Virus record (IMG/VR): IMGVR_UViG_3300049811_000819
Span: 1-63,473 of that record
Strand: one strand, 5' to 3'
Origin: a virus
DNA length: 63,473 nucleotides
The position numbers and the translations under genes were made by a program. Shown one piece after another: positions 33,182 to 53,121 of the stretch (the stretch's first letter is position 1; each line of letters opens with the position of its first letter). The notes below the pieces were generated by a model. It was not told where the DNA came from. It saw only the letters and a list, made by a program, of their open reading frames with translations, and searched no databases.

Positions 33182-33214
33182 AAGGGACTAAAGAATTTCT
33201 CTAGTCCCTAATTT
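33182..33214 (+). terminator. Terminator after the terminase genes
   Basis: AGGGACTA (33183-33190) pairs with TAGTCCCT (33202-33209), followed by AATTT. The T-run is poor, so efficiency is uncertain. Its left arm contains GGGACTAAA, the sequence that follows the leader hairpins of the antirepressor genes. Confidence 0.55.
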
Positions 33215-33312: not shown

Positions 33313-34212
33313 TTGACACTCCCGTCGTCTCGAAGGGGTTGCACCAGAGAACAAAAAATCGGCTTGCTAGTTGTAGATTCCCGTTTGATCGCCGGTGAGC
33401 TAGGGATCGAGCATCGTGGATTACGTCAGACAGTCGAGAAGTATTTGAACGAGTTACAAGAGTTCGGGACGATAACATTTCAAATGTCATCGTCACGGAT
33501 GCCGGATGGACGCATTAACCCGAAACCTGAGCGCTATTGTTTCCTCAACGAAGATCAGGCGACCTTCCTGATGACGCTTTCCCGCAACACTCCCCAAGTA
33601 GTCGCTTGTAAGCAAAACCTAGTCAAGGCGTTCTCAAAGGCTAAAGAGTTAATCAAAGAAGTCAACCCTGCAAAAAGCGATCGGGAATTAGAGATCGAAA
33701 AAATCCGGGCGATCACCGAAAACGTCTATGCGATAAGCAAAACCGACGTTGAGAAAATGCGGGAACTCAAAAATTTCTCCCCTCCTACCCAAGTCGAATA
33801 CTATCGCCTAGAACAAGAACGAGTAAAAGAGCAGGCGGAACGTGCCAAGACAGAGGCTGAACAGCTTCGGTTAGAGCGTTCCAAAATAGTCCACTCCCCG
33901 AAAAAAGAAACCCTGTACCCTGTAGGAACTACTCTACTCACCCCGGAACAGCTAAAAGACAAGCTAATTACCGACATGGCCGCCTACATCGACAAAATGG
34001 TCAACGAAAAAGGAATCAAGCCGAAAATACGGGATTTACAGCAGAAATTCCAGTCCCGCAAGGTTCCCGATGATAATGGCAAGCTTGTCAGAATTAATGC
34101 GAATATTTTGCGATCGCTCCTACCGGAAGCTTTAGAGCGATGCGAATGCGATCGAGAAAATGTTCTGTTGGGATTACCCCTAAACCGAGTCAGAGTCTCT
34201 CGAACCCACTAG
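33313..34212 (+). CDS. Rha-like antirepressor, apparently N-terminally shortened
   Basis: From VVDSRLIAGELGIEHRGL to CFLNEDQATFLMTLSRNTPQV and NLVKAFSKAKELIKE the protein matches the Rha domain of its paralogs at 42559 and 52270. Those start MSIQI(L/V)TVNESLVVDSR; here the first strand is missing and only TTG starts exist (33313 or 33364), so the N-terminus looks truncated or altered. The C-terminus (LITDMAAYIDKMVNE...KIRDLQQKFQSR...INANILRSLLPE) is shared with the BRO-type protein at 34289, showing domain exchange. A coiled coil links the two. Role: probable phage regulatory protein. Confidence 0.7.
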   Translation: MTLPSSRRGCTREQKIGLLVVDSRLIAGELGIEHRGLRQTVEKYLNELQEFGTITFQMSSSRMPDGRINPKPERYCFLNEDQATFLMTLSRNTPQVVACKQNLVKAFSKAKELIKEVNPAKSDRELEIEKIRAITENVYAISKTDVEKMRELKNFSPPTQVEYYRLEQERVKEQAERAKTEAEQLRLERSKIVHSPKKETLYPVGTTLLTPEQLKDKLITDMAAYIDKMVNEKGIKPKIRDLQQKFQSRKVPDDNGKLVRINANILRSLLPEALERCECDRENVLLGLPLNRVRVSRTH

Positions 34213-34288
34213 AAACTTTCAGTTTAAAATAGTGATGCCCCCGATCGCTTCGGGGGACTAACCAATTCAACCTAAAAGGCAGGTCAAA
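34211..34288 (+). promoter_or_regulatory. Leader of the BRO-type gene: promoter box, hairpin, ACTAA
   Basis: AGAAACTTTCAG followed by TTTAAAAT (promoter-like), then hairpin GCCCCCGA-TCGCT-TCGGGGG (34237-34256) directly followed by ACTAA, and AAAGGCAGG before the ATG. The same order is found in front of five other genes. Confidence 0.65.
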
Positions 34289-35053
34289 ATGGCTAACTCA
34301 AGTTTAGCAGTTTTCGAGTTTCAGTCTAATTCCGTCCGAATTCTCTCAATCGATAATGAGCCGTGGTTTGTGGCGCGGGATGTTTGCAATGTACTTGGTA
34401 TTTTAAATGTTTCGCAAGCTCTTGCGCGATTAGATGGGGACGAAAAGCGTCTTGTGAATAGCGAAGGGGGTATCATTTCAAATGATGATCCAGACGTAAC
34501 AAGGCTTCTAGCTGTTAACGAGTCTGGTATGTACTCCCTTGTACTATCGTCCCGCAAGTCAGAAGCACGGGCTTTCAAAAAATGGATCACTTCAGAAGTC
34601 CTCCCCTCAATCCGAAAAACGGGAGGATATGTGCAACAGGAGTTGTCGGAAACTGAAAAACTGAGGATTAAGCTAGAAAACGCAAAAATCGAGCTAGAAA
34701 TTGCAAAACTGCGGCTAGAAACGACGAAAGTAGATGTAGAGCGAGAGCGTTTTGCGTTGGAATCGAAACAACTAAGTGAGCCAATCCCTCAATTTTCGGA
34801 GATTCCTGTCGCTAATGCGTATAGCTCCAATGCGGCTAATACTATCCAGCGAGCAAAGCTAATCAACGCAATCGCCGCATACATGGACAAATGCGAGCGA
34901 GAACACAAACGGATTCCTGATATTCGGAATTTGCACCAACGATTTCAGCGATGGATTTTGATAACCGACGATGGCAATCCAATTCGGGTCAATTCTGGCA
35001 TACTTAAAAATTTGATGCCAGAAGTCAACGCTTGTCGTGCCGAGCGTCATTAG
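34289..35053 (+). CDS. BRO-N family antirepressor-like protein
   Basis: 254 residues. The N-terminal 115 residues form a BRO-N domain: VRILSIDNEPWFVARDVCNVLGI, RLDGDEKR, VNESGMYSLVLSSRKSEAR, FKKWITSEVLPSIRKTGGY. A heptad-rich coiled coil follows (~120-160). The C-terminal module (LINAIAAYMDKCEREHKR... IRNLHQRFQR ... RVNSGILKNLMPE) matches the end of the Rha-like protein at 33313. BRO/Ant proteins bind DNA and often relieve repression of lytic genes. Confidence 0.8.
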   Translation: MANSSLAVFEFQSNSVRILSIDNEPWFVARDVCNVLGILNVSQALARLDGDEKRLVNSEGGIISNDDPDVTRLLAVNESGMYSLVLSSRKSEARAFKKWITSEVLPSIRKTGGYVQQELSETEKLRIKLENAKIELEIAKLRLETTKVDVERERFALESKQLSEPIPQFSEIPVANAYSSNAANTIQRAKLINAIAAYMDKCEREHKRIPDIRNLHQRFQRWILITDDGNPIRVNSGILKNLMPEVNACRAERH

Positions 35054-35158: not shown

Positions 35159-35251
35159 AGTGCGATGTAGGGGATGTGGAACCGGGGAGGGATTGGGGGG
35201 GGTAGGGACGGGATAGGGACAAGGATAGGGGGATGTTAAAACGTTAGAGCG

Positions 35252-35930
35252 ATGTTAGGGAGTAAATAACGTAGGAAAAAGATATATATGTCAATACTTC
35301 TAACCTTTTTGTTAGTATGTTTCACTTTTTTACCCACTTACTCTTTTTTGGTTCAACCCCCCTACTTTTACTGCTGACCTTGCTAATTTTTCTAGCGAGT
35401 AGTACAAGTATTCTATGTTAAAGATTTTGACTCGATGTTAGGGAGTAAATAACATAGAGAAAAGATATATATATCAATACTTCTAACCTTTTTGTTAGTA
35501 TGTTTCACTTTTTTACCCACTTACTTTTTCCCGATCCAATTTCCTATCTTTCCACGGATGACCTTGCTCTATCCCCTCCCTTTTTTTCCTTCCCCTATGA
35601 TCCTTGAAACATTCATAACAAATTTCTACAGACTAGACAGGGTAAGCGTTTCAGGATGTTATCTGATACCCTAACATCCTCGAACACCTCGACATAGCGA
35701 TCGCAATTCTGATATATTACATATACTACGAATGTAACATATCTTATCGCTTATAGTAGAGTCTGATGTATTACATATACTACTTATGTAACACAACCCC
35801 CTTTTTTCGTCTGTTTTGACTAACTATATAGGTAGCCCTAACATCAATAACACTTTCTGAAAGTCTTACTGGGAGAGGATTTAGGTGTTGGATTTATCAA
35901 TGACACCCCTCGAACACCCTAACATCCCTC
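35252..35930. promoter_or_regulatory. Control region C: duplicated 90-bp unit and spaced palindromes
   Basis: No credible gene lies between 35054 and 36211. A unit beginning GATGTTAGGGAGTAAATAAC and ending TTACCCACTTACT occurs at 35251-35342 and again at 35434-35525 (183-bp period, near identical). Palindromes ATGTTA-N9/10-TAACAT lie at 35252-35272 (TAACGT), 35435-35455 and 35656-35677. A second class, TTACAT-N9-ATGTAA, lies at 35717-35737 and 35771-35791. ACATCAATAACA recurs at 35840. Very AT-rich; a replication origin or repressor-binding region is possible. Confidence 0.6.
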
Positions 35931-36156: not shown

Positions 36157-36211
36157 CGCCCTCTAGTTCTCGCTAGAGGGACTAAACAATAAGCCTAAAC
36201 AGGAGGCACTA
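36157..36211 (+). promoter_or_regulatory. Leader hairpin and ACTAAA of the second BRO-type gene
   Basis: Hairpin CCCTCTAG-TTCTCG-CTAGAGGG (36159-36180) directly followed by ACTAAAC, then AATAAGCCTAAACAGGAGG and ATG. Stem sequence differs from the other leaders, but the architecture is kept, pointing to selection on structure. Confidence 0.7.
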
Positions 36212-36988
36212 ATGTCTGATACAAGTTTAGCAGTTTTCGAGTTTCAGTCTAATTCCGTTCGTATTGTGATGATCGACGGCGATCCGTGGTTTGTAGCGCG
36301 GGATTTGTGCGAAGCGTTAAACCTTCGCGATACCTCTAAAGCTTGCGCTCGATTGGATGTTGACGAAAAGCTGATACGAACATTAGTCGTATCAGGTCAA
36401 AACCGTGAAGTAGTAATAATTTCAGAATCGGGGATGTATCGTTTGGTTTTTAGATCGCGCAAACCTGAAGCGCAAGCGTTCAGAAAATGGGTAACATCTG
36501 AAGTTCTCCCCTCGATCCGAAAAACAGGACGCTACTCGCTTCCCTCCCCCTCCCCCTCCCCCCTATCCCTCCCCGAACAATTAGCTGCGGCCGGACTACC
36601 CGAAGATTGGCCAGTCAAAAAATATCCCCTAGGAGTTCCCACGGGAGAAAAGCCACCTCTGCCAAGCGATCGCCCTGGGAGTTTAGAACGACAAGAAATC
36701 GAATTGACAATTTTGCTGTGCGAGGCTTTTGGAGGGCGGCTAGTCACGCCGGAGGAAGCGGCGATCGTTGCACCCGAATTAAAGTCAGCGATCCGAATGC
36801 ACTTTCGGAGCCATGGCCGTGGATGGAGTTGGGCAACCATCGTCAAGGCATACACTTTTGACAACTGCTGGTGGGAACGATTTTTTAAGGAACCGGTGAT
36901 CAGGTATTTCAAGTTCAACCCCCTTGCACCTCGCCAACCCCAATTTGCGGATCAGAAATTTTTGCTTGAAACTTCAAGCAAAAATTAG
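36212..36988 (+). CDS. BRO-N family antirepressor-like protein
   Basis: 258 residues. The first 110 residues repeat the BRO-N pattern (VRIVMIDGDPWFVARDLCEALNL, RLDVDEKLI, ISESGMYRLVFRSRKPEAQ, WVTSEVLPSIRKTGRY) and are nearly the same as in the gene at 34289. A Ser-Pro repeat (PSPSPSPLSLPEQL) leads to a different C-terminus ending in an aromatic, basic region (NCWWERFFKEPVIRYFKF). Good AGGAGG ribosome binding site. Probable regulatory switch protein. Confidence 0.8.
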   Translation: MSDTSLAVFEFQSNSVRIVMIDGDPWFVARDLCEALNLRDTSKACARLDVDEKLIRTLVVSGQNREVVIISESGMYRLVFRSRKPEAQAFRKWVTSEVLPSIRKTGRYSLPSPSPSPLSLPEQLAAAGLPEDWPVKKYPLGVPTGEKPPLPSDRPGSLERQEIELTILLCEAFGGRLVTPEEAAIVAPELKSAIRMHFRSHGRGWSWATIVKAYTFDNCWWERFFKEPVIRYFKFNPLAPRQPQFADQKFLLETSSKN

Positions 36989-41929: not shown

Positions 41930-42145
41930 TTAGTTTGATTCGTCCCTAGAATCACCTGCCAAAAATAAACCAATAGCGATTAGTTTTCCCTGCCAATTAT
42001 CTGAGGCAATGTAATGAGCAAATAGCGCAATACCCGAAAATTCAGGGTGTTGCGCTGAGTAAGTAATAAAATCACTTAGAACATAAATAGCGGCAATTAA
42101 TGAAGTTTTCCAGTCTTTAAACAATGCTCGATTTAATATTTTCAT
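41930..42145 (-). CDS. Holin-like small membrane protein
   Basis: 71 residues with two apolar segments: KTSLIAAIYVLSDFITYSA and LIAIGLFLAGDS, and a charged end (DSRDESN). The pattern of short N-terminal KDWKTSL, helix, linker, helix is common among small phage holin-type proteins. It has a strong AGGAGGG and overlaps the end of the RusA-like gene. The endolysin is almost 10 kb away, so the lysis role is not supported by clustering. Confidence 0.5.
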   Translation of the reverse strand: MKILNRALFKDWKTSLIAAIYVLSDFITYSAQHPEFSGIALFAHYIASDNWQGKLIAIGLFLAGDSRDESN

Positions 42146-42521
42146 AAACCCTCCTAAAAATTGGCTTGTCGCTGATTGTTAAAATTAGCTTATCTTCGTG
42201 CCATTTTGTAAATGTGTGGTCGTATCCTCGAATAATCTTTAGGTTGTCTTCGATAATAATTCCTGCGTATTTTAGCCCATCGTTAATATACTTTGCCCCA
42301 GCAGAAGTGTTATCAGGGTCACGGGCAAAATTAACGATTTTCCATTCATAGTGTAACCAAACCTCGCCTAAGAACCGTGGGATTTTTTGCTCTTTTACAA
42401 GGCTTGCAATATAAAAATTCCACTTTTTTTTGATGCTCGCACTTTTGAATTTGTTGCTTCGAGCTACTCGAATCTGATCGTTTAGTGTGGGAGGGAGGGG
42501 ACAGGTAAAAGTAGTGATCAT
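42117..42521 (-). CDS. RusA-like Holliday junction resolvase
   Basis: 134 residues from the ATG at 42521; the longer reading start would cross the leader hairpin. FTCPLPPTLNDQIR and the conserved acidic cluster FARDPDNTSAGAKYINDGLKYAGIIIEDN match the RusA pattern (DxDN...K...D.L...g...DD). RusA enzymes resolve branched DNA during phage replication or packaging. The catalytic Asp set appears complete. Preceded by a hairpin-ACTAAA element 7 bp before the ATG. Confidence 0.7.
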   Translation of the reverse strand: MITTFTCPLPPTLNDQIRVARSNKFKSASIKKKWNFYIASLVKEQKIPRFLGEVWLHYEWKIVNFARDPDNTSAGAKYINDGLKYAGIIIEDNLKIIRGYDHTFTKWHEDKLILTISDKPIFRRVYENIKSSIV

Positions 42522-42548
42522 TTTTAGTCCCCCGTTTACGCGGGGGCA
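42522..42548 (-). promoter_or_regulatory. Leader hairpin and ACTAAAA in front of the RusA-like gene
   Basis: Minus strand GCCCCCG-CGTAAA-CGGGGG followed by ACTAAAA and then the ATG. The shortest version of the leader element, with no Shine-Dalgarno between hairpin and start. Confidence 0.65.
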
Positions 42549-42558
42549 TACAATTATT

Positions 42559-43311
42559 TTATTCGCCCAATAACAGTTGTCTTTGCCCTTCCGACAAAAT
42601 CCGAACAGCTTTGTCGATATTTTCTTGGTGTACAAAAGACTGAGTGATCGGGCGCTGGATCAAATCCAATAAATCAGGTGCTATTTTTTGCAATCGACGT
42701 TCTAACTCCGCCCCCGATTTAAATGTAACTCCCGTCATTTTTTTTATATGATCTTTTAATTGTGCAGTAGTCATTCCCTTGCGGCGATCACCACAACGCT
42801 GATCTATTACTTCTAATACGACTTTTTCGGTTTCGACAATTTGATCAGCCATGCCACGCAATGCGAGGACAGTCTCTTTGCCGTGTAAGACTAGCATCGT
42901 ATGGTCTAATTGTCTCAGTTCAAGTTGCTTGGACAATACTTCGTTTTGTAGTTCTAACTCTCGAATGCGATCGCTTTGCTGTGGGATAACTTCTTTGATT
43001 AGTTTTTTGGCTTCTGAAAAAGCTCTAACTAGGTTGCGCTTGCATTGACGCACTTGCTCACTATTCCGAGAAAGTGTCATCGTATAAGTTGCTTGATCTT
43101 CGTTTAAGTAACAATAAATTTCTGTAGAAGTATTACCCTGACTTGTTTTGAACTCTCGCATTTTAAATTCTAGAGTTCCAAATTGTTCAATTTCTGTTAA
43201 ATACTTTTTGATTGTTTGCAAAAAGCCTTTATGGGTAATCCCTAATTCATCAGCGATTAAACGGGAATCAACAACTAAAGACTCGTTAACTGTTAAAATC
43301 TGAATAGACAT
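42559..43311 (-). CDS. Rha-like phage regulatory protein
   Basis: 250 residues. Rha domain: MSIQILTVNESLVVDSRLIA, GITHKGFLQTIKKYL, YCYLNEDQATYTMTLSRNSEQV, CKRNLVRAFSEAKKLI. Coiled coil ~115-145. The C-terminal part (KSGAELERRLQKIAPDLLDL...ENIDKAVRILSEGQRQLLLGE) is related to the end of the paralog at 52270. Rha proteins are antirepressor-like and can block phage or helper growth. Preceded by the conserved leader and AGGAG. Confidence 0.8.
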   Translation of the reverse strand: MSIQILTVNESLVVDSRLIADELGITHKGFLQTIKKYLTEIEQFGTLEFKMREFKTSQGNTSTEIYCYLNEDQATYTMTLSRNSEQVRQCKRNLVRAFSEAKKLIKEVIPQQSDRIRELELQNEVLSKQLELRQLDHTMLVLHGKETVLALRGMADQIVETEKVVLEVIDQRCGDRRKGMTTAQLKDHIKKMTGVTFKSGAELERRLQKIAPDLLDLIQRPITQSFVHQENIDKAVRILSEGQRQLLLGE

Positions 43312-43402
43312 AGTGGCTCCTATTAGCCTAAATGTTTAGTCCCCCGATCGCATCGGGGGCAATAATAATATTATAATCTGAAAGTTTCTGTTAAGATGCT
43401 AA
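43312..43402 (-). promoter_or_regulatory. Leader of the Rha gene: AACAGAAACTTTC, TATAAT, hairpin, ACTAAA
   Basis: Minus strand order: TTAACAGAAACTTTCAGAT, TATAAT, hairpin CCCCCGATGCGATCGGGGG (43341-43359), ACTAAACATTTAGGC, AGGAG, ATG. Nearly identical to the leader at 44126-44210. Confidence 0.75.
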
Positions 43403-44125
43403 CTAAGCGCGCTTAATCGTTAACGTCGTCGTTTCGGGCAATCGATATTCGGGATAAGCTAATCGCCATGCCTGATGATGATAAAGATTTTGGAATTCAA
43501 ATCGGGGAGACGGCACTTTTTTGATCTCTAGCCCTAGTTTATTACTTGCCGCTTTCAGTAGTCGCCAGTTAAACGAGGTTTCCCGTACATCGTTAAACTT
43601 GGCAACACGGATAATCGAACTATACTCAAAAAGCTCATCAACCGCTTCAGAAAGAGCATAATTTTCGGCTTCTAGTAGTTGTTTTTGTTCCTCTAGAAGT
43701 TCCATTTTCTCCAATAAGGCGACCTGCTGTTCTGCTAGTTTTAAGTTTTCACGAGCAAGCTCAATCGCTGTTTTGGGTTTAGCGATCGAGTAGCTTCCCG
43801 TTTGACGAATAGAAGGAAGTATCTCGGAGTGCATCCATCGGTTTAGTTGTTTACCCATCTCAGTTCGCGATCGAGATAACAAGAATGTGATCGCCGCATC
43901 ATTGACGATTAGTACACGCTGAACTCCTCCGTTAGTTTCAAGGGAGTAGTCGGCGACTACATCCTTTCCTAAATCCTCTTGTAGTACCGCTTTTGCGTCA
44001 GCCGGGCGCGTTTTGCTTCCCATAGCTTTAAGGACATCGGCTAGTACAAACCACGGATCACCGTCGATCACTACTACCCGGATCGCGTTTCCACTAAAAT
44101 CGAATGGTACAATATTGTTAGACAT
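43403..44125 (-). CDS. BRO-N family antirepressor-like protein
   Basis: 240 residues. BRO-N domain: IRVVVIDGDPWFVLADVLKAMG, VNDAAITFLLSRSRTEM, LNRWMHSEILPSIRQTGSY. A leucine-rich coiled coil (~130-160, QQVALLEKMELLEEQKQLLE) follows, then a distinct C-terminal domain (VRETSFNWRLLKAASNKLGLEIKK...YHHQAWRLAYPEYRLP) that looks like the KilA-C/ANT-type end of phage antirepressors. Preceded by the shared leader. Confidence 0.8.
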   Translation of the reverse strand: MSNNIVPFDFSGNAIRVVVIDGDPWFVLADVLKAMGSKTRPADAKAVLQEDLGKDVVADYSLETNGGVQRVLIVNDAAITFLLSRSRTEMGKQLNRWMHSEILPSIRQTGSYSIAKPKTAIELARENLKLAEQQVALLEKMELLEEQKQLLEAENYALSEAVDELFEYSSIIRVAKFNDVRETSFNWRLLKAASNKLGLEIKKVPSPRFEFQNLYHHQAWRLAYPEYRLPETTTLTIKRA

Positions 44126-44210
44126 AGTGGCTCCTATTAGCCTAAATGTTTAGTCCCCCGATGCGATCGGGGGCAATAATAATATTACAATCTGAAAGTT
44201 TCTGTTAAGA
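44126..44210 (-). promoter_or_regulatory. Leader of the BRO gene (same type)
   Basis: Minus strand: TTAACAGAAACTTTCAGATTG, TAATATTATTATT, hairpin CCCCCGATCGCATCGGGGG (44155-44173), ACTAAACATTTAGGC, AATAGGAGCCACT, ATG. Lies just downstream of the head operon end. Confidence 0.75.
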
Positions 44211-44242
44211 TGCAACTTGTTTCCCGTGCTGACCAAAAACTT

Positions 44243-44911
44243 TTAGACTGTGATAGGTTTATACTTCCGAAAAGCCAGTAATAAATCATCGGGAACCATT
44301 CCTAACTGTCCCGATCCGTAACTAATTTTTAACTCTTCAAACGGCAATTCTACGCTTGTAACACCCTTAAAGCTTCCCGTATTACATACCCAGTCGAGAA
44401 CTCGTCCAAAAGCGGCTTTTAGTTGTCTTACTTGCCTAGTATCTTCCGAGAAGTCGATCCCCGCAGAATACTCCACATCAGCCTCGGAAAACTCAGGGAA
44501 TGGCTCACGGCTGTTCCATGATTGATTGTATCCCCATGATCGCCCGTAAACAGTTGATAGATTAATCTGTCCATCTACATCGATCATGTACTCATCAGGA
44601 GTCAGTACCTTCCAATTATCTGGGGCGATTGCCCGGTTAAATCCGTCTGTTACGTTTCCGAGGCGAACCTTGATAATTGGTTCGGGGTCTTCTGCGATCG
44701 GTGTGCTTGGCGAGACATAGGTAAGTCTAAAGTTTTGGAATTTTAGATTGACCCGTAGCTTTTCTCGGTACTGGACAATCCCTAGTGGGCGATCAGCCCC
44801 CCGATCCCCCTCGACAATAGTTTCGACAAAAGAAATTGCGCCTTCTAGTGCGTCATCCACTAGGGTAACGCTAGGCGCAAATAGTGACAGGTCATCGGGA
44901 GTGAAAATCAT
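44243..44911 (-). CDS. Head-tail connector-like protein
   Basis: 222 residues from the ATG at 44911, which overlaps the preceding stop (ATGA). FTPDDLSLFAPSVTLVDDALEGAISFVETIVEG is the start pattern of connector (gp6/gp15-type) proteins: an early helix pair covering 'A..fve'. Followed by beta-rich text. Last gene of the head operon after the capsid gene, the usual connector position. Confidence 0.55.
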   Translation of the reverse strand: MIFTPDDLSLFAPSVTLVDDALEGAISFVETIVEGDRGADRPLGIVQYREKLRVNLKFQNFRLTYVSPSTPIAEDPEPIIKVRLGNVTDGFNRAIAPDNWKVLTPDEYMIDVDGQINLSTVYGRSWGYNQSWNSREPFPEFSEADVEYSAGIDFSEDTRQVRQLKAAFGRVLDWVCNTGSFKGVTSVELPFEELKISYGSGQLGMVPDDLLLAFRKYKPITV

Positions 44912-45132
44912 ACAATTTTGAGCATCGGACAATATTTCTGGTTTTCTTTTGTCCGTTGCGGGCAAAACGAAGCTCTTTCTTCGTCGTCATACTGTAATCG
45001 TCCGCCGCAGTCACTACAAAGCTTTATACCTTGACTTCTCAGGTTGACAAGCTGATATTCGCTTTCGGCAGGCGGAAAGTCAGGCGAGGGGATTTCGCCC
45101 GCTATTTCGGTTTTTGTTCTTGTTTCAGCCAT
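44908..45132 (-). CDS. Small zinc-ribbon-like protein
   Basis: 74 residues. IKLCSDCGGRL and ASFCPQRTKENQKYCPML supply four cysteines in CxxC...C...C spacing, likely one zinc. N-terminus is acidic/Pro-rich. It lies between the capsid and connector genes, 6 bp after the capsid stop. A decoration or assembly role is guesswork. Confidence 0.6.
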   Translation of the reverse strand: MAETRTKTEIAGEIPSPDFPPAESEYQLVNLRSQGIKLCSDCGGRLQYDDEERASFCPQRTKENQKYCPMLKIV

Positions 45133-45138
45133 AGTTTA

Positions 45139-47052
45139 TTAGGTTAATCCAGAAAGTGCATTGTCAGTAGTGCGGAACTTGGCTACCCGTAACTGTTGAC
45201 TGGCGTTACTTGAACCAGTGGGGTCAACGTCAAGGGTATCAACTCCTTCCCACGAAAGCCATGTCAAGCGGGACTCGCGGTCAAAGTTGGTTACAGAATC
45301 GGTGCGAACCTCGACAGGCATTGCAATTCCACGTCCTACTGCTCCATGTCCAAAGAAATAGGAGTCCCGGAATAGTGCAGTAGTAGAGGGAGTGCGGACG
45401 GTAACATTGCTTACTCCGTCCGCCCCAGCGTTGCCTACCCCAAAAGCATTCGATTCAAAACAGTGAACGCCCTCGACAACACCCATGTAGCCGTTAACTC
45501 GCGGTTCGGACTCATCAGGAACGTAAGCCGGAAGCATGGCATTGAGGAAATCAAGAAGGTTGGCTGGTGTCGGGGCTTCCCAGTCGTCGTCTAAGTCTTC
45601 TCGCAATTGTTTCCAAGCAGTAGGATTTAGGACTGCCATAAAGTTTCCGTCTGGCAGGGGTTCCCACGGGCTAGTAGATGAGTGAGCGCGGTGACGCATC
45701 TCCCGGAGAAATTGTTGACTCATCCGTCCATCGCCGTTTTGTAGAGCAGTCGGAGTAGTAGTGATTGTGTTGCCCCGGTTATACCAGATTACCGAGGTCA
45801 CATCGTAGCGAGACCGGATTAAACGATCCTCGAATTGAGCGTAGTCATAGCCAAATTTTTGATTGAGTTCTGCCGCTAGTTCGTAAGCAGAAAAATACTC
45901 AACGAAACTCACAATCCGGATTGGATTAATTTGCGTAGAAGCACTTTCTTTACCACGTCCATACTCACGAATTTCCACATCGACTTTAGACGTGGACATG
46001 GAATCGCTACGGGTCGTGATCGAACTGTAGGTACTGCCCGCCGATAATTCGTAGTCAGCAAGAGCAGGAGAAACAGAAAGATAATTGAATCTTCCAATTT
46101 GAATTGTGTTTCCCCGCGATTTTGCAAAATCGTATCGCACTAAGGGCATCATGTGAAATACAAAGCCAGGGCGATGGGTGACACGCATAATCGCCGAGAG
46201 CGTAGGTAAAAAGCCACCGGGAAGATCAGAGATGATCGTGTTAGTCACGCTTTCACCAGGATCGATCATCTGAATATCAGTTCCCCGAAAAAGACCCGCT
46301 TTTTTACCCCACGAATCGAGATCGCTTAAAACGTGCCGATAGTTTGCCTTGACATAGCGATCAAGCTCGGTTTTGTCAAAGTCTAGAACACGCTCTTTAG
46401 CTCCTGTAAATTTTATAGCTTTTGGGAGCGAGTCGATATGATGCTGAATTTCCCGAAAAGTACCGGGTAACTTATCGTTGTACCCGATTGAGATATTCGT
46501 GTTAAAGTTTACTGTTTTGAATTTCGGGGCATTGTTTTGTACTTTCACTTCGTCTGTTTCTGCCTTTTTTGCAGGCTGACTAGAGCCGTGGAGTTTTCCT
46601 AGTTCTTGAAAGTTATTAATGAGTCGTTCCGACTCGGACGTTTTAGCTTCGAGTGCAGCGATTTTTTCGTTTGCTTGCTTGATAGCGACCGATGCGCTAT
46701 CAAGAGAGGATTTAATTTCGTTTTTTTCGGCTTCTGCCTGTTGCTTTTGCGCTTCTAACGCAGATTGTTTCTCGGCTTCAGCCACTACCTTAACTTCTGC
46801 AATTGCAGAAGTTACAGCATTTGTGATCATTAACTCGATTGCTTTTAGATCGACCGCAGGAGCGGTGAGAGCTTCAAGGGTTTCGGCTTCAAAATTTTTG
46901 ATAGGAGTAGCTGGCATAGCGTTTTTAATTACGCCGCGTTCCACAGCCTTAGATTTCATCTCAAATAATTCTTTCTCGTCAACAGGTTCCCCATCGGAAT
47001 CTTTCACGACTACGGGGGTAACTCGTTTGATTTCTTGTAATGTTTTAGGCAT
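45139..47052 (-). CDS. Major capsid protein with N-terminal coiled-coil scaffold-like region
   Basis: 637 residues from the ATG at 47052. Residues ~60-150 form a long alanine/glutamate coiled coil (AEAEKQSALEAQKQQAEAEK), like the delta/scaffold part of capsid precursors that lack a separate scaffold gene. The rest is a capsid body (PGGFLPTLSAIMRVTHRPGF, DVEIREYGRGKESAST, GNFMAVLNPTAWKQLR, RDSYFFGHGAVGRGIAMPVE) resembling N4-gp56-type or HK97-fold proteins. The protease-like gene just upstream could remove the N-terminal region. Confidence 0.8.
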   Translation of the reverse strand: MPKTLQEIKRVTPVVVKDSDGEPVDEKELFEMKSKAVERGVIKNAMPATPIKNFEAETLEALTAPAVDLKAIELMITNAVTSAIAEVKVVAEAEKQSALEAQKQQAEAEKNEIKSSLDSASVAIKQANEKIAALEAKTSESERLINNFQELGKLHGSSQPAKKAETDEVKVQNNAPKFKTVNFNTNISIGYNDKLPGTFREIQHHIDSLPKAIKFTGAKERVLDFDKTELDRYVKANYRHVLSDLDSWGKKAGLFRGTDIQMIDPGESVTNTIISDLPGGFLPTLSAIMRVTHRPGFVFHMMPLVRYDFAKSRGNTIQIGRFNYLSVSPALADYELSAGSTYSSITTRSDSMSTSKVDVEIREYGRGKESASTQINPIRIVSFVEYFSAYELAAELNQKFGYDYAQFEDRLIRSRYDVTSVIWYNRGNTITTTPTALQNGDGRMSQQFLREMRHRAHSSTSPWEPLPDGNFMAVLNPTAWKQLREDLDDDWEAPTPANLLDFLNAMLPAYVPDESEPRVNGYMGVVEGVHCFESNAFGVGNAGADGVSNVTVRTPSTTALFRDSYFFGHGAVGRGIAMPVEVRTDSVTNFDRESRLTWLSWEGVDTLDVDPTGSSNASQQLRVAKFRTTDNALSGLT

Positions 47053-47098
47053 GGTGTTTTTCACGATCGCTAAGAAAATTATACTTGAAGTTTTGCTA

Positions 47099-47812
47099 TC
47101 ACGCCATAACAAAAGCGTTCAGGTTTTTATCAAGAATTCTAGCCTGTCGGCAATTTCCCGCAAATACAAAAGAGCATTCTAGGGAGTCACATATTCCGAC
47201 GCGACGGTAGTAAGGCGTTAACAGTTCTTGCTCTACCCATACTGCCATGAACGGGGGGTAATGCTCACAGTGCTTGTCTTCGTAAGGAGTGTTGCAGATC
47301 GGACAGTAGGATTTTCCGTAAAAGTTTCCGCCAATTGAAACATTCGCCCGCCGACCATAGAGAATATCCGAGGCTCCGGGGTGGGACTGTTCAATAAAAG
47401 CAAATACTAAAACCTGATGATAACCGTCTTGCTCAATAATTGCTCTGTCTTCGCTTGGGTTCGGGGACTTAGAAAGTATCTTTCGCATCCCTTCCTCGCT
47501 TACTCGTGGTAACGAATAAAGCAAAGCATCGTAAATCATCCCGAAAGTTTTTTCTGCCCGTTCCCATTCGTGATCCAACATCAAAGGACAGCCAGGATAG
47601 CTCGCTACCATAGTTGTTAAGGCGCTTTCATCCCACGCCATCAGTGAGCCGTGAATCAGGTTGTTGCTGGCCATCATTGGGAATCGCAAAAGTTCGGACG
47701 CTTCCCACGGGTCAGACCCCATCGGGGAGTAAGCATTAATTGCTAATAGTTCCTCGGCTGTCGGTTCGCGCGTTTCTAGTAATTTTTCAAAATCTGAGCG
47801 AGTTAGTAGCAT
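47099..47812 (-). CDS. Putative prohead protease
   Basis: 237 residues. SLMAWDESALTTMVASYPGCPLMLDHEW contains a conserved His in the position seen in phage capsid-maturation proteases, and VLVFAFIEQSHPGASDILYG and RANVSIGGNFYGKSYCPICN follow a pattern known from phage proteases with a Cys/His cluster (CPICNTPYEDKHCEHYPP). VGICDSLECSFVF fits the usual late 'eCSfV' element. Serine and His for catalysis are plausible, but I cannot fix the triad. It is located right before the capsid gene. Confidence 0.55.
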   Translation of the reverse strand: MLLTRSDFEKLLETREPTAEELLAINAYSPMGSDPWEASELLRFPMMASNNLIHGSLMAWDESALTTMVASYPGCPLMLDHEWERAEKTFGMIYDALLYSLPRVSEEGMRKILSKSPNPSEDRAIIEQDGYHQVLVFAFIEQSHPGASDILYGRRANVSIGGNFYGKSYCPICNTPYEDKHCEHYPPFMAVWVEQELLTPYYRRVGICDSLECSFVFAGNCRQARILDKNLNAFVMA

Positions 47813-47954
47813 GGCTATAAAAAATCCTAATAATAATTCTACTTGTAAAACAGAAGTTTATGGTAAGATGAGCGCAATAAATACAAAATATAAATCAAAA
47901 ATTTACTTCAGGGAGTACGAGTTACGGGGCAGGAAGCAGCCTCGTTTTTTTTGT
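47813..47954. other. Gap in the head operon with rightward promoter-like text
   Basis: A 142-bp gap. Rightward AAACAGAAGTTTATGGTAAGAT resembles the AACAGAAACTTTC-box/-10 arrangement of the antirepressor leaders. A 30-codon rightward frame starts at 47868 and ends at 47960, and ACGAG...CTCGT followed by T8 lies at 47918-47949. This may encode a short antisense RNA or peptide; not strong enough to call a gene. Confidence 0.35.
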
Positions 47955-48593
47955 CTATAGCCAGCCTGAGCCAGCAAGGAGGTTTGTCGTCGGGCGCGTG
48001 CGAGAATTGGAAAAAACAAAATAACATCCGCAATTATCTCGGCAGGAACAGCGATCGGTGGGACGGGGGAGGGTTCCAATTGTCTGCCATCCCGCCGCTT
48101 CGTACACTATGCACTCACGGCAGGATTCGGTTTTTGTCCTGATTCGGCGTTCCCATCGGTTTACTAAAGCGTTTCCCCGGCGATTTCCCTCCTCGAAAGC
48201 TTCACGAGCTTTAGTGATGTAACGTTTTGAGCGGTTTAGAATTTGTTTTTCTGTTTGAGTTCCAAGTATAATGTCCCGGCTAAACTTTCGGAGTCTAGCG
48301 TACTGTGAGCGAAGCATTGCCCCGATCCTTCCGTAGTCGGATTGGGTCATATCTGGCTTCCCGACTCGATACAGTTGGATCGTCAACATCTTAATTTCCT
48401 CGCTCATGCGAGACTCCCATTCTCGAACGGTGATTCGTTCAGAAAGCATATCCCGTGTAAGTCGATCAGTCCGATTAATCCTTTCGTTGATCGCCGTAGC
48501 GACAAGCTCACGAACACGGGCGGCCGAAATAAATTTCTTGGTTCGGTTGTCGTGATAGCGTCGAGTTAGGGGATTAAATGAAAAATCAAACAT
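47955..48593 (-). CDS. MuF-like minor head protein
   Basis: 212 residues from the ATG at 48593. A helical N-terminal two-thirds is followed by the MuF-type ending: WERRIRTKTESCRECIVYE, GTLPRPTDRCSCRDNCGCYFVF, with the C..C ... C.C...C.C cysteines. The protein usually sits inside the head near the portal. It lies between the EAL/small gene and the protease-like gene. Confidence 0.75.
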   Translation of the reverse strand: MFDFSFNPLTRRYHDNRTKKFISAARVRELVATAINERINRTDRLTRDMLSERITVREWESRMSEEIKMLTIQLYRVGKPDMTQSDYGRIGAMLRSQYARLRKFSRDIILGTQTEKQILNRSKRYITKAREAFEEGNRRGNALVNRWERRIRTKTESCRECIVYEAAGWQTIGTLPRPTDRCSCRDNCGCYFVFSNSRTRPTTNLLAGSGWL

Positions 48594-48595
48594 AG

Positions 48596-48769
48596 TCAAA
48601 GCTGTTCATCGATCTCTGGTTCAAGAAAGTTTTCAAAATCAGGATCGGGAGGTTTTTTCTTCCAGTCTGAGATTGCTAAATTTATGTCTTCAGAATTTAC
48701 GTTTGCCTTTGATAATAAGCGTGTTACTGGATCAAGAGTTTTTTCTTTTGGGTTAAATTTGCTTCGCAT
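48596..48769 (-). CDS. Small hypothetical protein upstream of MuF
   Basis: 57 residues (MRSKFNPKEKTLDPVTRLLS ... ending EPEIDEQL). Its stop is 2 bp upstream of the MuF ATG and its start is 3 bp downstream of the EAL gene stop, so it fills the gap exactly and looks like a real cistron. Basic N-terminus, acidic C-terminus; no family recognised. Confidence 0.7.
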   Translation of the reverse strand: MRSKFNPKEKTLDPVTRLLSKANVNSEDINLAISDWKKKPPDPDFENFLEPEIDEQL

Positions 48770-48772
48770 GAT

Positions 48773-49477
48773 TTACTCAATACAAAGGTCTTCGGGATGA
48801 ACAGGACAATGAAAAGCGTAACCTTGAAAATATTCTAACCCTAAACTGCTTAAAAGATTAAATTGCAACAAAGACTCAACTCCTTCAGCAACTAAAACTG
48901 TTCCTTGTTCTTGACAGAATTTTGCAAAATACTTAATAAAACTAGCTTTTTCTGAATTGTCAGCGTCAACCAAAAATAGGCGATCAAGTTTGATGATCGA
49001 GGGAGAAATAGAGAATAGTCTATCAAGCCCTGCGTGATTGCAAGGAAAATCGTCAATAGCAATTCTATAGCCTAAGTCTTTTAAAAAACAAATTTCGTTT
49101 AATCCGTTTGGGGAAATAGGATCGCTTTCTGTTATCTCAATAATTACCTTGTCAGGATTTAAAAAAGTCGTCAACTGCTTTATGTGAGTTTTGTTTGCTA
49201 ATTGAATAGGCGAAACATTTACGCAAACTGACGAGATATTGTACCTATTAATATCCTCACTAACAATTTTTGCGATTAATAAATAAAGAGAGAGAAGCTG
49301 ATTAGCTTCAGCCGCAACCTCAAAAATATGTCCTGCGCCCTCTGTTTCAAAACCTTTCCAGCGAAGTAAAGCCTCGCAAGAAAACGGAATCTTTTCTGAA
49401 TTGACAATTGCCTGATAATACGGGCGAATATCGCCTCTGTCTAATGCTTTAAGCAGGTCTGCTGGATTCTTTCTCAC
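48773..49477 (-). CDS. EAL-domain (c-di-GMP phosphodiesterase-like) protein
   Basis: 234 residues from a GTG at 49477 (29-bp overlap with the portal gene; another GTG at 49492 is possible, and the frame is open to 49618). A whole EAL domain is present: CEALLRW, CVNVSPIQL (Asn), IIEITES (Glu), IAIDDF (two Asp), IIKLDR (Lys), LVAEGVES (Glu) and YFQGYAF (Gln). Loop 6, normally DDFGTGYSSL, is DDFPCNHAGL, so dimerisation or activity may be changed. EAL enzymes cleave cyclic di-GMP to pGpG. No GGDEF, sensor or membrane part. Its place between portal and MuF is unusual. Confidence 0.85.
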   Translation of the reverse strand: MRKNPADLLKALDRGDIRPYYQAIVNSEKIPFSCEALLRWKGFETEGAGHIFEVAAEANQLLSLYLLIAKIVSEDINRYNISSVCVNVSPIQLANKTHIKQLTTFLNPDKVIIEITESDPISPNGLNEICFLKDLGYRIAIDDFPCNHAGLDRLFSISPSIIKLDRLFLVDADNSEKASFIKYFAKFCQEQGTVLVAEGVESLLQFNLLSSLGLEYFQGYAFHCPVHPEDLCIE

Positions 49478-50732
49478 TTTTTTCTTTCTCACTTTTTGGT
49501 GTACTTTCTTCTGTGGCGGTGTCGTCAGTTTCGTCGCTCGACATTCCATCAATTGACTCTGACCATTCTGGCCAAAGTATCCGATACTTATTTTGAGCAT
49601 TCTCGGTGTACCAATCAAAGCCTTTGCGTAATACTATCTCTGTGTCGATTGCTTGTTTAATTGCGCTCGTCAGTAGTTGACACCATCCGTACCTCATCCG
49701 AGAGTAGCGGCGATCAGGCGATCGAGATAGCTCTTTAGTTCCCCCCTTTGATTCGAGTCCGGGAAAAAAGTACGAGGGAAAGCCAGGGATAATTAGCCTA
49801 TATCGGCATTGCAAAAGATGATTAATTAATCCCGATAGTTCAGGATTAAGGTTTGCCATTTTGCGAATATCGTGTTTATCGCTAGTTAGTACAAAATCGG
49901 TGATCGTCCCTGATTGTCGCCGTAGCTGTATTTCTTGTTCAAATTTTCGCTTGTTTTCTTCGCTTATGCCCGGGAAGATGTACAAGGTCGGATCACTCGC
50001 AATGTCATCGGCTTTTCTTTGGAGATTGTCGGCCGCTCGTTTTACGTCTGTCCATGCTTCAAGCGATGGTAGCCAAAGCGAACGCCCATAAAGGAATTCG
50101 GGAGAATGCCGGAGATGGATAAGTTTTTCTGGCTCGAAAAAATAATCGGGATCGGAATCGGATAAATACTTTCTTTGTTCAAATCCGATCAGTTGTCCTT
50201 GGTCTGTTTCTTTTCGGAACATCTCGAATGTAGGCAGATAAAGACTCTTGTTTACTCCAAAATCCTTGCTTTTGTTCGGAGATAATCCTTCACGCTCAAT
50301 CCCTAGTTCGATAAAACAATCGCCTTTTCCTAATGTCCATCGCAAGGCTTTTTTAAGCTTGTCCCCTCCGATCACGTGAGAATCTAAAGATTGCTTTCTT
50401 TGGCGTAATTCTTCAGCAATTGCAAAAACTTCAGCGTTTATGGGTGTTTCTTCGTCATCGAGCGTATCGGCAATCGCCCAACCTTGATCGTCCCCGTCGC
50501 TACTAGCGAAAGTATCATCGGCGGCCATTTCGAGGGAATGGAACACCTCATAGCACCATTGGTTAAGTTCGATTAGCTCACGGGAAATTCGAGGGTTACG
50601 AATCGGATTTTCCTCGATTTCTAGGTCGTATCTCCGCGTCATCGATAGAATTCCCGATGAAGCAAGCGATCGCTGTGAACCTCTTAGCGATCCGTCTTGT
50701 TTTTTGTCTTTTTTCTTTTTTGTTTTGGCCAT
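49449..50732 (-). CDS. Portal protein
   Basis: 427 residues. First gene of the head operon. WALTLGKG-type core: LKKALRWTLGKGDCFIELGIE, PTFEMFRKETDQGQLIGFEQ, EPEKLIHLRHSPEFLYGRSLW, LEAWTDVKRAADNLQRKADD, ISEENKRKFEQEI and FFPGLESKGGTKE form the usual portal order (wing, 'hlr....yG.S....', stem helix, crown). The C-terminus is Ser/Glu-rich and overlaps the EAL gene. The N-terminus is extremely lysine-rich (MAKTKKKKDKK). Confidence 0.8.
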   Translation of the reverse strand: MAKTKKKKDKKQDGSLRGSQRSLASSGILSMTRRYDLEIEENPIRNPRISRELIELNQWCYEVFHSLEMAADDTFASSDGDDQGWAIADTLDDEETPINAEVFAIAEELRQRKQSLDSHVIGGDKLKKALRWTLGKGDCFIELGIEREGLSPNKSKDFGVNKSLYLPTFEMFRKETDQGQLIGFEQRKYLSDSDPDYFFEPEKLIHLRHSPEFLYGRSLWLPSLEAWTDVKRAADNLQRKADDIASDPTLYIFPGISEENKRKFEQEIQLRRQSGTITDFVLTSDKHDIRKMANLNPELSGLINHLLQCRYRLIIPGFPSYFFPGLESKGGTKELSRSPDRRYSRMRYGWCQLLTSAIKQAIDTEIVLRKGFDWYTENAQNKYRILWPEWSESIDGMSSDETDDTATEESTPKSEKEKSEKESSRPA

Positions 50733-50764
50733 CGGGAGCTACAATTCTTTCCCTATTCTAAGGG

Positions 50765-50791
50765 AAAAAGACGACTTTGTTAGCCGTCTTT
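50765..50791 (-). terminator. Terminator between the 109-residue gene and the portal
   Basis: Minus-strand stem AAGACGGC / GTCGTCTT with TAACAAA loop, then TTTTTCCC. It should end the leftward transcript from the promoter at 51444, so the head operon needs its own start. Confidence 0.75.
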
Positions 50792-50823
50792 CTTGAAACA
50801 TCACACAAGGAAAGGAAAAAATT

Positions 50824-51153
50824 TTAAAACTCGTGCCACTCTAGCAATTCGTCTGGCACATCATTGTACTTTTGCCAGATAATACTAGGATCATCGTTGG
50901 GATCACCTTCATTGCTAGGAACTTCATAGCTCATCCCGAAGCATTCTATAACATTAGCATAGTTTCTAGTGAGAATAGGAGCAGGGACAACTTCCGATGG
51001 ACGCAACCAGAGGTTTTCTGGTTCGGGGTTTTGGAAGTTCACCGATAGGTATGGGCCATCGGGAATAACTTCTACGATCCGACCTACTCCACGATCAATA
51101 TCTTCCTTGATTTCTTCCGTGTTTATCTTGACAAATTCATCTATTTTAAACAT
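50824..51153 (-). CDS. Hypothetical protein with KOW/SH3-like N-terminus
   Basis: 109 residues. KIDEFVKINTEE...GVGRIVEVIPDGPYLSVNFQNPEPENLWLRPSEVVPAP looks like a small beta-barrel with the 'G.i..i.......v.f' pattern. The remainder is acidic. No family recognised. Four bp after the gene at 51158 and served by the same promoter. Confidence 0.6.
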   Translation of the reverse strand: MFKIDEFVKINTEEIKEDIDRGVGRIVEVIPDGPYLSVNFQNPEPENLWLRPSEVVPAPILTRNYANVIECFGMSYEVPSNEGDPNDDPSIIWQKYNDVPDELLEWHEF

Positions 51154-51157
51154 TGTT

Positions 51158-51412
51158 TTACTCCTCTGGTTGATTCAGGATTGCTTTTTCTTGTTCGATA
51201 GAAATAGCGGAGTAAAACAATTCATCGGTAAGCCGATCTTGCAAAATCTTAGCTACAGCATTAGTAACAAAAAAGAATTTCCCTTGCGCTAAATTTACGG
51301 ATGATACGTTTGGCATTACGTCGTATTCGATAAAAAATACTTCGTAACAGTTGACAAAGTGTTGTCTTCCTTTAGCGTCTTCAATTACTAAAGGACTGAA
51401 TTTATCACTCAT
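51158..51412 (-). CDS. Small hypothetical early protein
   Basis: 84 residues: beta-strand N-terminus (SPLVIEDAKGRQHFVNCYEVFFIEYD) and helical C-terminus (ELFYSAISIEQEKAIL). First cistron after a near-consensus promoter of the TTGACA-operator class, so probably an early gene. No family recognised. Confidence 0.6.
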   Translation of the reverse strand: MSDKFSPLVIEDAKGRQHFVNCYEVFFIEYDVMPNVSSVNLAQGKFFFVTNAVAKILQDRLTDELFYSAISIEQEKAILNQPEE

Positions 51413-51443
51413 GATGACTCCCTTAATTTCTTGACTTAATTAA

Positions 51444-51473
51444 ATCATACATAGTCTTTCTTGAATTGTCAAG
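51444..51473 (-). promoter_or_regulatory. Leftward promoter, operator-like -35
   Basis: Minus strand TTGACA (51467-51472), 17-bp spacer, TATGAT (51444-51449). The -35 is within CTTGACAATTCAAG. Drives the genes at 51158 and 50824. Confidence 0.8.
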
Positions 51474-51491
51474 TAAACCAGGAGAACAATT

Positions 51492-52247
51492 TTAGATAAC
51501 CTGTAAAGCTTTCTCGTAGTACCGAATTCTGTCTTCCAATGCATTAAACCCCCCGTTGACTCGTCGAGTAACTTGTTTTACTGTTGCACCTCGATCAATT
51601 AGTGCGTTCATTTTATTGCGATACCACCAAAACCCAGAGGGGAGAAAAAGGTAATTATCCCGAACGTATTGCCACCCCTCCATCACTCTCTGATCGCCAA
51701 CAAAGTCAGCAAAAGCTTGGTAGTTTGCTCTGCCAGTCATTTGAAGAGCGTCCACGCCACGAAACCGTCGCCCGTCACCAGCAAAGATATTGCCGAGGTC
51801 ACGCCGTCCTTCGTAGGCAGTTCCTGACGCTAATTCAACCATCCAGCGAAGTCCGCCACTTTCGTGGGCAATTTGAGCTAAAAAGTGGCGGACACGGGGG
51901 ATAGTAGTAATATCGAAGCGCTTGAGACAGCGATCGAGAGCTTGGAATTGGCGATCTGTAATTGCTCTCCCAAAAACCGCCTCGCACTGGTCTTTACGGA
52001 CAACAGGAGACTCTATCCCTGTCCCGTCAAAGTGTCCTCGAAAAGCATACCAGTTAAAGCGTCCATCAATCGGAGAATCGACTTCTATTAGGTAGTGACT
52101 TCCTTTGAGCTTTAGCCACTTGTAAATCACTTTTTGCCCCTTAGTAATCGGAACAGACTTAAAATCTGTGGGCAAATTCGGAGCGGAGGAGTCAAGGGGG
52201 TGAGACTTTAAGAGTGTAGGAGCAGTAGCGAGCAGGGTGTTAATCAT
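51492..52247 (-). CDS. GH19 (chitinase-fold) endolysin
   Basis: 251 residues. Residues 34-75 look like an SH3-like binding part (ITKGQKVIYKWLKLKGSHYL...FNWYAFRGHFDGTG). The GH19 lysozyme/chitinase-type domain follows: RVRHFLAQIAHESGGLRW with the catalytic acid Glu129, a second acidic candidate Glu146 (TAYEGR), GDGRRFRGVDALQMTGRANY and the ending WWYRNKMNALIDRG ... ITRRVNGG-like text. It should cleave peptidoglycan glycan strands at lysis. A standalone gene between an early operon and a Rha gene. Confidence 0.85.
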   Translation of the reverse strand: MINTLLATAPTLLKSHPLDSSAPNLPTDFKSVPITKGQKVIYKWLKLKGSHYLIEVDSPIDGRFNWYAFRGHFDGTGIESPVVRKDQCEAVFGRAITDRQFQALDRCLKRFDITTIPRVRHFLAQIAHESGGLRWMVELASGTAYEGRRDLGNIFAGDGRRFRGVDALQMTGRANYQAFADFVGDQRVMEGWQYVRDNYLFLPSGFWWYRNKMNALIDRGATVKQVTRRVNGGFNALEDRIRYYEKALQVI

Positions 52248-52269
52248 TTTGTTAAGTTTCCGTTTTCAC

Positions 52270-53025
52270 TTATTCGCCAATTAACATCTGTCGGCTTACA
52301 CTTTTTCGTTTTTGAGCAAACAAATCTTTAACTGTTTTAATATTTTCTTCTGGAATATAGGGAGCCTGTACTGCTCGCATTCCTTGACAAATTAGGTGAT
52401 CCTGTTTTTGTCGTTTTAGCCAAATTTCTAATTCCCGCCCTGTTTTGAATCCTAATTGTTTGGCCATATCAGCTAGACTTCGCCCAACAAAAGATACGTT
52501 ACGCCCATCTTTGCAAACTACTGTCTCGGTGATAACTTCTTTGACCGGAACGATGGCATTGGGTACACCTTTAATTAAAGCCAGTATCTCAACTCCGTGG
52601 AGCGACGCAATTGCTTCTGATTTGTCTAAGATGTATCGATTATTTTGAGAGATTTCTAACTGCATCTCCAATTCTCGAATGCGATCATTCTGTGCTGGAA
52701 TTACTTCTTTGATTAGTTGTTTCGCTTTCTCAAATCCTTCAACTAATTTTTCTTTGCAGTCTAGAACCTGTTCGGTATTGCGAGAAAACGTCATCAACAA
52801 AGTAGCTTGGTACTCATTTAAGTAACAGTAAGAAATTTCGTAAGTCCCTCCCTGTGGTCGTTTCACCACGTCGATTTCAAATTTTACTGGTTCTTTTCGC
52901 CCCAAACGGTCAAGATATTTCTTAATTGTTTTAAGTAAACTTGCGTGTTCAATCCCTAATTCTTGTGCAATTAAACGGGAATCAACAACTAAAGACTCGT
53001 TAACTGTTACAATCTGAATAGACAT
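52270..53025 (-). CDS. Rha-like phage regulatory protein
   Basis: 251 residues. Same N-terminus as the paralog at 42559 (MSIQIVTVNESLVVDSRLIA), then EHASLLKTIKKYL, YCYLNEYQATLLMTFSRNTEQV and KLVEGFEKAKQLIKEV. The middle differs; the end (KTGRELEIWLKRQKQDHLI...EENIKTVKDLFAQKRKSVSRQMLIGE) is a diverged copy of the paralog's C-terminal domain. Same leader and AGGAG. Probable antirepressor or host-interaction regulator. Confidence 0.8.
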   Translation of the reverse strand: MSIQIVTVNESLVVDSRLIAQELGIEHASLLKTIKKYLDRLGRKEPVKFEIDVVKRPQGGTYEISYCYLNEYQATLLMTFSRNTEQVLDCKEKLVEGFEKAKQLIKEVIPAQNDRIRELEMQLEISQNNRYILDKSEAIASLHGVEILALIKGVPNAIVPVKEVITETVVCKDGRNVSFVGRSLADMAKQLGFKTGRELEIWLKRQKQDHLICQGMRAVQAPYIPEENIKTVKDLFAQKRKSVSRQMLIGE

Positions 53026-53121
53026 AGTGGCTCCTATTAGCCTAAATGTTTAGTCCCCTAGCTTTAACTAGGGGCGATACCAATATTATACCGAAAGTTT
53101 TTGTTAAGAGGCTGAATTGTC
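53026..53121 (-). promoter_or_regulatory. Leader of the second Rha gene
   Basis: Minus strand: TTAACAAAAACTTTCGG, TATAAT, hairpin CCCCTAGTTAAAGCTAGGGG (53055-53074), ACTAAACATTTAGGC, AGGAG, ATG. The stem sequence differs from the CCCCCGATCG stems, but the pairing is kept. Confidence 0.75.

Follow-up and report, generated by a model that had tools for sequence, protein, structure and literature searches.

RNA control of phage antirepressors has so far been described in a small number of enterobacterial phages, in which the ant mRNA is the target of antisense RNAs; the sar RNA of P22 and the c4 RNA of phages P1 and P7 block antirepressor synthesis at translation initiation (PMC12197685). A different arrangement is found in cluster K mycobacteriophages, whose SAS/ESAS repeats stand before many unrelated gene starts, about half of them with an inverted repeat just upstream, and are of unknown function (PMC3203893). 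Furthermore, bacterial mRNA can be made more stable by a hairpin at its 5' end (PMC3997798). The present analysis deals with a leader in a 63,473-nt stretch of viral DNA (IMG/VR record IMGVR_UViG_3300049811_000819, positions 1 to 63,473; hereafter the window), in which a G+C-rich hairpin (P1, not to be confused with the phage) is followed by ACTAA and by a second hairpin (P2) over the Shine-Dalgarno sequence (SD) and start codon. We give an even chance to the reading that this leader is the shared 5' untranslated region of an antirepressor regulon, in which P1 would protect the RNA 5' end and P2 would act in translation initiation; the element is filed as a new leader-RNA family of known kind.

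Direct reading and a mechanical search of both strands confirmed all six loci at which the initial annotation had placed a hairpin directly before ACTAA, and among all ACTAA sites of the window, on either strand, a perfect G+C-rich stem of at least 6 bp stands in front of these six only. The genes directly downstream, as assigned by Pfam and PHROGs, are three Bro-N genes (bro34, bro36 and bro44), two Rha genes (rha43 and rha53) and one RusA gene (rusA). From 5' to 3', the order is a TAnAAT-like -10 element, P1, ACUAA(C/A), P2 and the start codon, the leader being about 52 nt long. In nearly all copies, 9-11 nt separate the -10 element from P1 (7 nt in bro34), and P1 lies 27-35 nt from the ATG in nearly all plausible copies, apart from rusA, one doubtful match in record L274 and a few copies next to which the longest frame has another start. 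The TATAAT-like -10 of the initial annotation can be drawn, in its TAnAAT-like version, at all six window loci, 7-10 nt 5' of the hairpin. Because the spacing between the -10 and P1 is constant, it is argued that the hairpin lies at the RNA 5' end: if transcription starts some 7 nt downstream of the -10, the RNA would open with A(U)(Y)G directly 5' of P1, and P1 would begin 2-4 nt from this predicted 5' end; for a stabilising stem-loop, a distance of about 4 nt at most is expected.

The initial annotation treated the element as a single hairpin, and P1 is indeed real, but P2, which was spotted on folding whole leaders, had been overlooked. P2 holds the SD in its loop and 3' arm, and its three outer pairs include the AUG and the following base. 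In the 22 leader regions examined by rule, the loop has 7 nt, or 6 in leaders of the rha43 type, the inner stem is xxCU/AGxx and the outer helix is CCA/UGG-like. RNAalifold, given the alignment as its sole input, yields P2 unaided, and three P2 pairs vary on both sides. Pair 15-27 occurs as A-U (8), C-G (8) and G-C (1), and pair 14-28 as U-A (5), G-C (4) and A-U (3), with 6 unpaired; pair 6-36, formed by the base after the AUG and its leader partner, also covaries (C-G 11, U-A 3, A-U 2). Double-change cells number 21 versus 7.8 in shuffles (slid controls are 12-46% paired), and a strict P2 is present at 12 of 18 leader genes versus 2 of 179 other genes with an SD, the leaders being related by descent, so that both the Fisher and the shuffle figures overstate independence. 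A conserved hairpin that includes the SD and/or the AUG is the mark of an SD-masking translational operator, and P2 is such a hairpin; it is because of P2 that action at translation initiation is argued.

Alternatively, P1 alone may matter, as a 5'-terminal stem-loop that slows 5'-end-dependent decay in the manner of the ompA leader, with P2 as an incidental result of how the SD and start codon are composed. The closeness of P1 to the predicted start, the retention of its pairing while loop sequence and orientation are free, the weakness of P2 and the presence of P1 by itself at rusA all fit this explanation, as does the stabilisation of bla mRNA by an added 5' hairpin in Escherichia coli (PMC3997798). 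Nevertheless, it accounts poorly for a P2 that covaries, has a loop almost constant at 6-7 nt and is rare among other SD genes, and a simple stabiliser would not need the ACUAA linker, which is retained despite diverged flanks. We regard it as unlikely.

P1 itself is 17-22 nt long, typically with CCC at its start and GGG at its end, and its arms are 5-9 bp of free sequence. In the alignment tested, 97% of cells are paired, four of the seven pairs vary on both sides and the outer six pairs show no one-sided change. Inverted P1 copies, exact reverse complements, stand behind the identical 38 nt of upstream sequence in three backgrounds; in the window, the hairpins of rha43 and bro44 (43341-43359 and 44155-44173) are mutually inverted. 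These flips show that P1 does not depend on the sequence of its loop. They suggest template switching at this short palindrome, by which perfect arms arise without selection; P1 covariation is therefore ambiguous and weaker evidence than that of P2. The compensatory change that had been claimed for the stems is, in P1 alone, not decisive. Both orientations behind identical upstream sequence were seen in the window and in L276, L283, L289, L278 and L300, and this recurrent inversion is of interest in its own right as a natural archive of template switching at such palindromes.

P1 could also work as DNA: an inverted repeat at +1 might serve as operator, bound by a repressor that controls the antirepressor genes. 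Such repressor control would be ordinary, P1 is palindromic and overlaps the predicted start, its outer six pairs are without G-U and its inversion is tolerated. On the other hand, the arms vary between copies within one phage, a length of 17-22 nt is odd for a single dimeric site, and P2 with its start codon, as well as the covariation involving that codon, would be left unexplained, so this possibility appears distinctly improbable. Moreover, the window holds a better operator candidate in a GAAA-N-TTTC box 5' of the -10. The initial annotation had noted this box at four loci, and it is there: AGAAACTTTC is exact in three window copies and has one mismatch in rha53. Comparison of upstream sequences indicated that the box, a candidate repressor site, is not retained in relatives.

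The window terminase has 41 relatives in IMG/VR. R1, a covariance model built from five window copies with the rusA copy left out, recovered that copy at E 0.0013 and nothing comparable in the rest of the window, the next-best matches (E 0.57 and 1.4) being two of the palindromes read on the opposite strand. Among related virus records (terminase relatives and L193), R1 found the element in 17 of 21, with at most three copies each, and R2, which was partly built from these relatives, in 23 of 27. A pattern scan gave 55 further stretches, of which 54 are plausible (L324 is the exception); pattern-level copies, one to three each, stand before Rha, Bro-N and SLQRFD-family genes in G395, G402, G390 and G415. 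The initial annotation had staked its proposal on covarying copies in relatives, and these were found, in support of one RNA-level element common to BRO/Rha genes.

The gene families behind the leader are Rha, Bro-N, KilA-N, weakly AntA, and an unnamed SLQRFD family. AntA-like genes with the leader are present in L274 (weak Pfam match) and L279 (PHROGs and resemblance), and the non-regulator or doubtful positions are confined to the window rusA copy and the doubtful L274 match. In ten related records, the leader stands at 6/6 full-length Rha and 2/2 Bro-N genes; a short Rha remnant in G389 is without it. Two diverged copies, before Bro-N and KilA-N, occur in G418, a different virus (52% G+C, 41 HIP1 octamers), and a search for further G418-like leaders returned G418 only. 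The same leader before several unrelated lysis/lysogeny regulators suggests joint post-transcriptional control by the virus. L252, L253 and L263 encode SLQRFDxDGIEL... proteins of 174-234 aa without a convincing Pfam or PHROG match, and their leader association suggests a new antirepressor-type family. Frame-shifted remnants of this family (16-47 codons) with an intact leader were observed in L238, L244, L247 and at G402:24590. HIP1 octamers number 13 versus about 0.5 expected, and by these octamers as the sole indication the hosts of these freshwater viruses are probably cyanobacteria.

Recent common descent offers another account of the conservation, with the leader as a duplicated promoter cassette that moves with moron-like regulator genes. 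The rha43, bro44 and rha53 leaders are almost identical except for the stem, degraded genes (16 and 47 codons) retain the leader and rusA seems to have inherited one. Between groups, however, the flanks have strongly diverged while P1, ACUAA and P2 pairing are retained with different stem sequences, which makes this account highly improbable.

On the plus strand of the window, the bro34 leader consists of P1 CCCCCGATCGCTTCGGGGG (34238..34256; direct reading, stem search and R1), the ACTAA linker (34257..34261) and P2 (34262..34292), the last with outer CCA/UGG pairs that include the AUG, inner ACCU/AGGU and a loop of 7 nt. Upstream lie the -10-like TAAAAT (34225..34230) and, 5' of it, the GAAA-N-TTTC inverted repeat (34211..34220), a candidate operator; bro34 itself (34289..35053) is a Bro-N antirepressor-like gene (PF02498, E 2e-22; anti-repressor in PHROGs). 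The second plus-strand leader has P1 CCCTCTAGTTCTCGCTAGAGGG (36159..36180) and P2 (36186..36215; outer ACA/UGU, inner GCCU/AGGC, SD in a 7-nt loop) before bro36, likewise Bro-N antirepressor-like (36212..36988; PF02498, E 8.5e-24). Between the two genes there is an AT-rich direct repeat of about 100 bp (gttagggagtaaataac...tatatat...ttagtatgtttcacttttttacccacttac; ~35240-35345 and 35436-35540), and GGCATCGGGAAACGCG occurs twice, at ~35976 and 36127, the second just 5' of the bro36 promoter, where other copies have the GAAACTTTC box.

The other four loci are on the minus strand. The rha43 leader comprises its box (43380..43389), P1 CCCCCGATGCGATCGGGGG (43341..43359), which is the exact inversion of the bro44 P1, and P2 (43308..43335; ACAU/AUGU, GGCU/AGCC, SD in the loop), followed by the Rha-like regulator gene (42559..43311; PF09669, E 1.5e-13). 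For bro44, the box (44194..44203), P1 CCCCCGATCGCATCGGGGG (44155..44173) and P2 (44122..44149) precede a Bro-N antirepressor-like gene (43403..44125; PF02498, E 5.4e-9), and for rha53, the box AAAAACTTTC (53093..53102), P1 CCCCTAGTTAAAGCTAGGGG (53055..53074) and P2 (53022..53049) precede a Rha-like regulator gene (52270..53025; PF09669, E 4.6e-13). At rusA, a RusA-like Holliday junction resolvase gene (42117..42521; PHROG 1682, E 1.7e-17), P1 CCCCCGCGTAAACGGGGG (42529..42546) lies 7 nt from the ATG without P2; this copy is an outlier, apparently either a leader that lost P2 or one that was captured. Another minus-strand site, GGGGACTAAA at 21045, had no matching stem in front of it in the mechanical stem search.

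Among the functions considered in the initial annotation, attenuation has left no sign, in that a U-tract is lacking: the U-run of a terminator or attenuator is missing after the stem, where ACTAA(C/A) or a close variant stands instead, and a scan of the region with the stems of rusA, rha43 and bro44 reported nothing terminator-like at them. Nothing was found in favour of a processing site. The recurrence of GGGACTAAA in the hairpin after terL (~33187-33209) turned out to be a different structure, with GGGACTA inside the stem. A leaderless mini-ORF starting from an ATG 5' of P1 was ruled out, several copies having TCG or ACG there and the frames differing.

The covariance-model search proposed in the initial annotation succeeded in related viruses but not in cyanobacteria: among 386 cyanobacterial genomes no convincing copy was found, the strict pattern being at chance level, R1 giving zero matches and R3 five weak, terminator-like ones. 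The isolated cyanophage CL131 (Rha 42% identical) gave no model match, and in L193 (Rha 64% identical) the ACTAAA leader is absent. The Bro-N gene gp062 of CL131, an Aphanizomenon phage, has its own long hairpin after TAAAAT (MG209611, 64542-64692) and a possible CCUG/CAGG hairpin before the ATG, in a sequence unlike the window leader. Phage and plasmid collections searched with the leader DNA returned nothing related. As a general trait of BRO leaders the element was rejected: among 160 BRO loci of other viruses and genomes, with 145 distinct regions upstream, none has it in leader position; one coincidental hairpin-ACTAA was distant from its BRO gene. The sequences upstream of the BRO genes in L089, L104 and L159 may be similar to the region that carries the C4 antisense RNA in enterobacterial phages. 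A TATAAT-hairpin pattern was likewise discarded, since 15 of its 16 matches in viral contigs belonged to a single unrelated repeat family and the last was a chance site before an unrelated gene. That family (L010-L024) combines TATAAT, a C/G-rich hairpin and GGGGACTAAA, is often near contig ends and is unrelated to the leader; in L016, the repeat is inverted at the two ends.

Several points, in addition to the common descent of the leaders, weigh against a regulon read through P1 and P2. The computed accessibility of SD and AUG is not significantly below that of other genes of these phages (p ~0.2), and accessibility was dropped as proof of masking. For Rha leaders of the MAIEIVSQ type, minimum-energy folding of the complete leader gives a different hairpin over the AUG. 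The rusA gene carries P1 without P2, and the Rha-family gene at 33313-34212 of the window has no leader. Furthermore, a consensus scan favours another -10 (TATTAT) in two window copies, which would place the start inside the P1 5' arm, and the covariation of P1, whose outer six pairs show no G-U intermediates, may be partly mutational. Separately, the N-terminal region of the gene at 33313-34212 is seemingly truncated or altered relative to relatives.

Because accessibility is not significantly lowered, P2 is no strong occluder by itself; given these ensemble calculations, P2 as a structure to be recognised, or to be completed by a partner, is more likely than P2 as a lock sufficient in itself. 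With P2 alone weak, a binding partner is likely. What is observed is the leader anatomy, its recurrence in front of four or five families of regulators and covariation in the two helices, and the regulon reading would extend this as follows. Each antirepressor-type gene would be transcribed from its own sigma-70-like promoter, with the RNA starting 2-4 nt before P1; P1 would anchor or protect the RNA 5' end, and P2 would tune the initiation of translation, most likely in concert with a trans-acting partner. Under this model, the 5' hairpin could keep untranslated antirepressor mRNA alive, and the operator-like SD hairpin could permit quick release of the stored mRNA. A bolder version, possible but rather unlikely, is that one trans-acting factor (a phage or host protein, a ligand or an RNA) reads P1-ACUAA-P2 and frees translation of all Rha, BRO, KilA-N and AntA genes, lysis/lysogeny being decided on stored, protected mRNA. 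If several unrelated antirepressor families do share a covarying cis leader, such phages would handle them as a single post-transcriptional regulon. The leader also provides a concrete marker by which antirepressor genes can be found in phage contigs, as well as a small, bench-testable system.

No description of this leader was found among the listed titles and abstracts of the open-licence literature, and no Rfam family matched, the one sub-threshold match being an unrelated plasmid RNA (18.9 bits; gathering 55). With c4 (RF01695) and sar, the leader would have in common the RNA-level control of antirepressor at translation initiation, which is here proposed; c4 and sar, however, are antisense RNAs, whereas the window element is a cis leader, and elsewhere in the window there is no 12-nt complement to the ribosome-binding region for the five leaders compared, a result that leaves room for shorter or host-encoded antisense RNAs. 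The 5'-terminal stem-loops of ompA, papA and aprE are like P1 in that the hairpin is within a few nt of the (here predicted) 5' end; unlike them, the window leader has a conserved linker and an SD hairpin and is common to the regulator set of one phage. SAS/ESAS is the closest published analogue by position, although its arms and motif differ. The 9-mer ATAGGAGCC is common to three window copies and the SAS consensus, but is not retained in relatives, and the GGGATAGGAGCCC motif and the 17-bp consensus-arm inverted repeats that characterise SAS/ESAS are absent from leader alignments A1, A6 and A7. ESAS has imperfect 17-bp arms with a consensus, whereas the window leader has 5-9 bp of free sequence, an ACUAA linker and a further hairpin that covers the SD and AUG. 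Finally, the gp43 operator of T4/RB69, a functional analogue as are the stabilising stem-loops, likewise joins an upstream hairpin to sequence overlapping the ribosome-binding site (PMC3014915); it has a conserved loop and autoregulates one gene, whereas the leader described here has a free P1 loop and serves several gene families.

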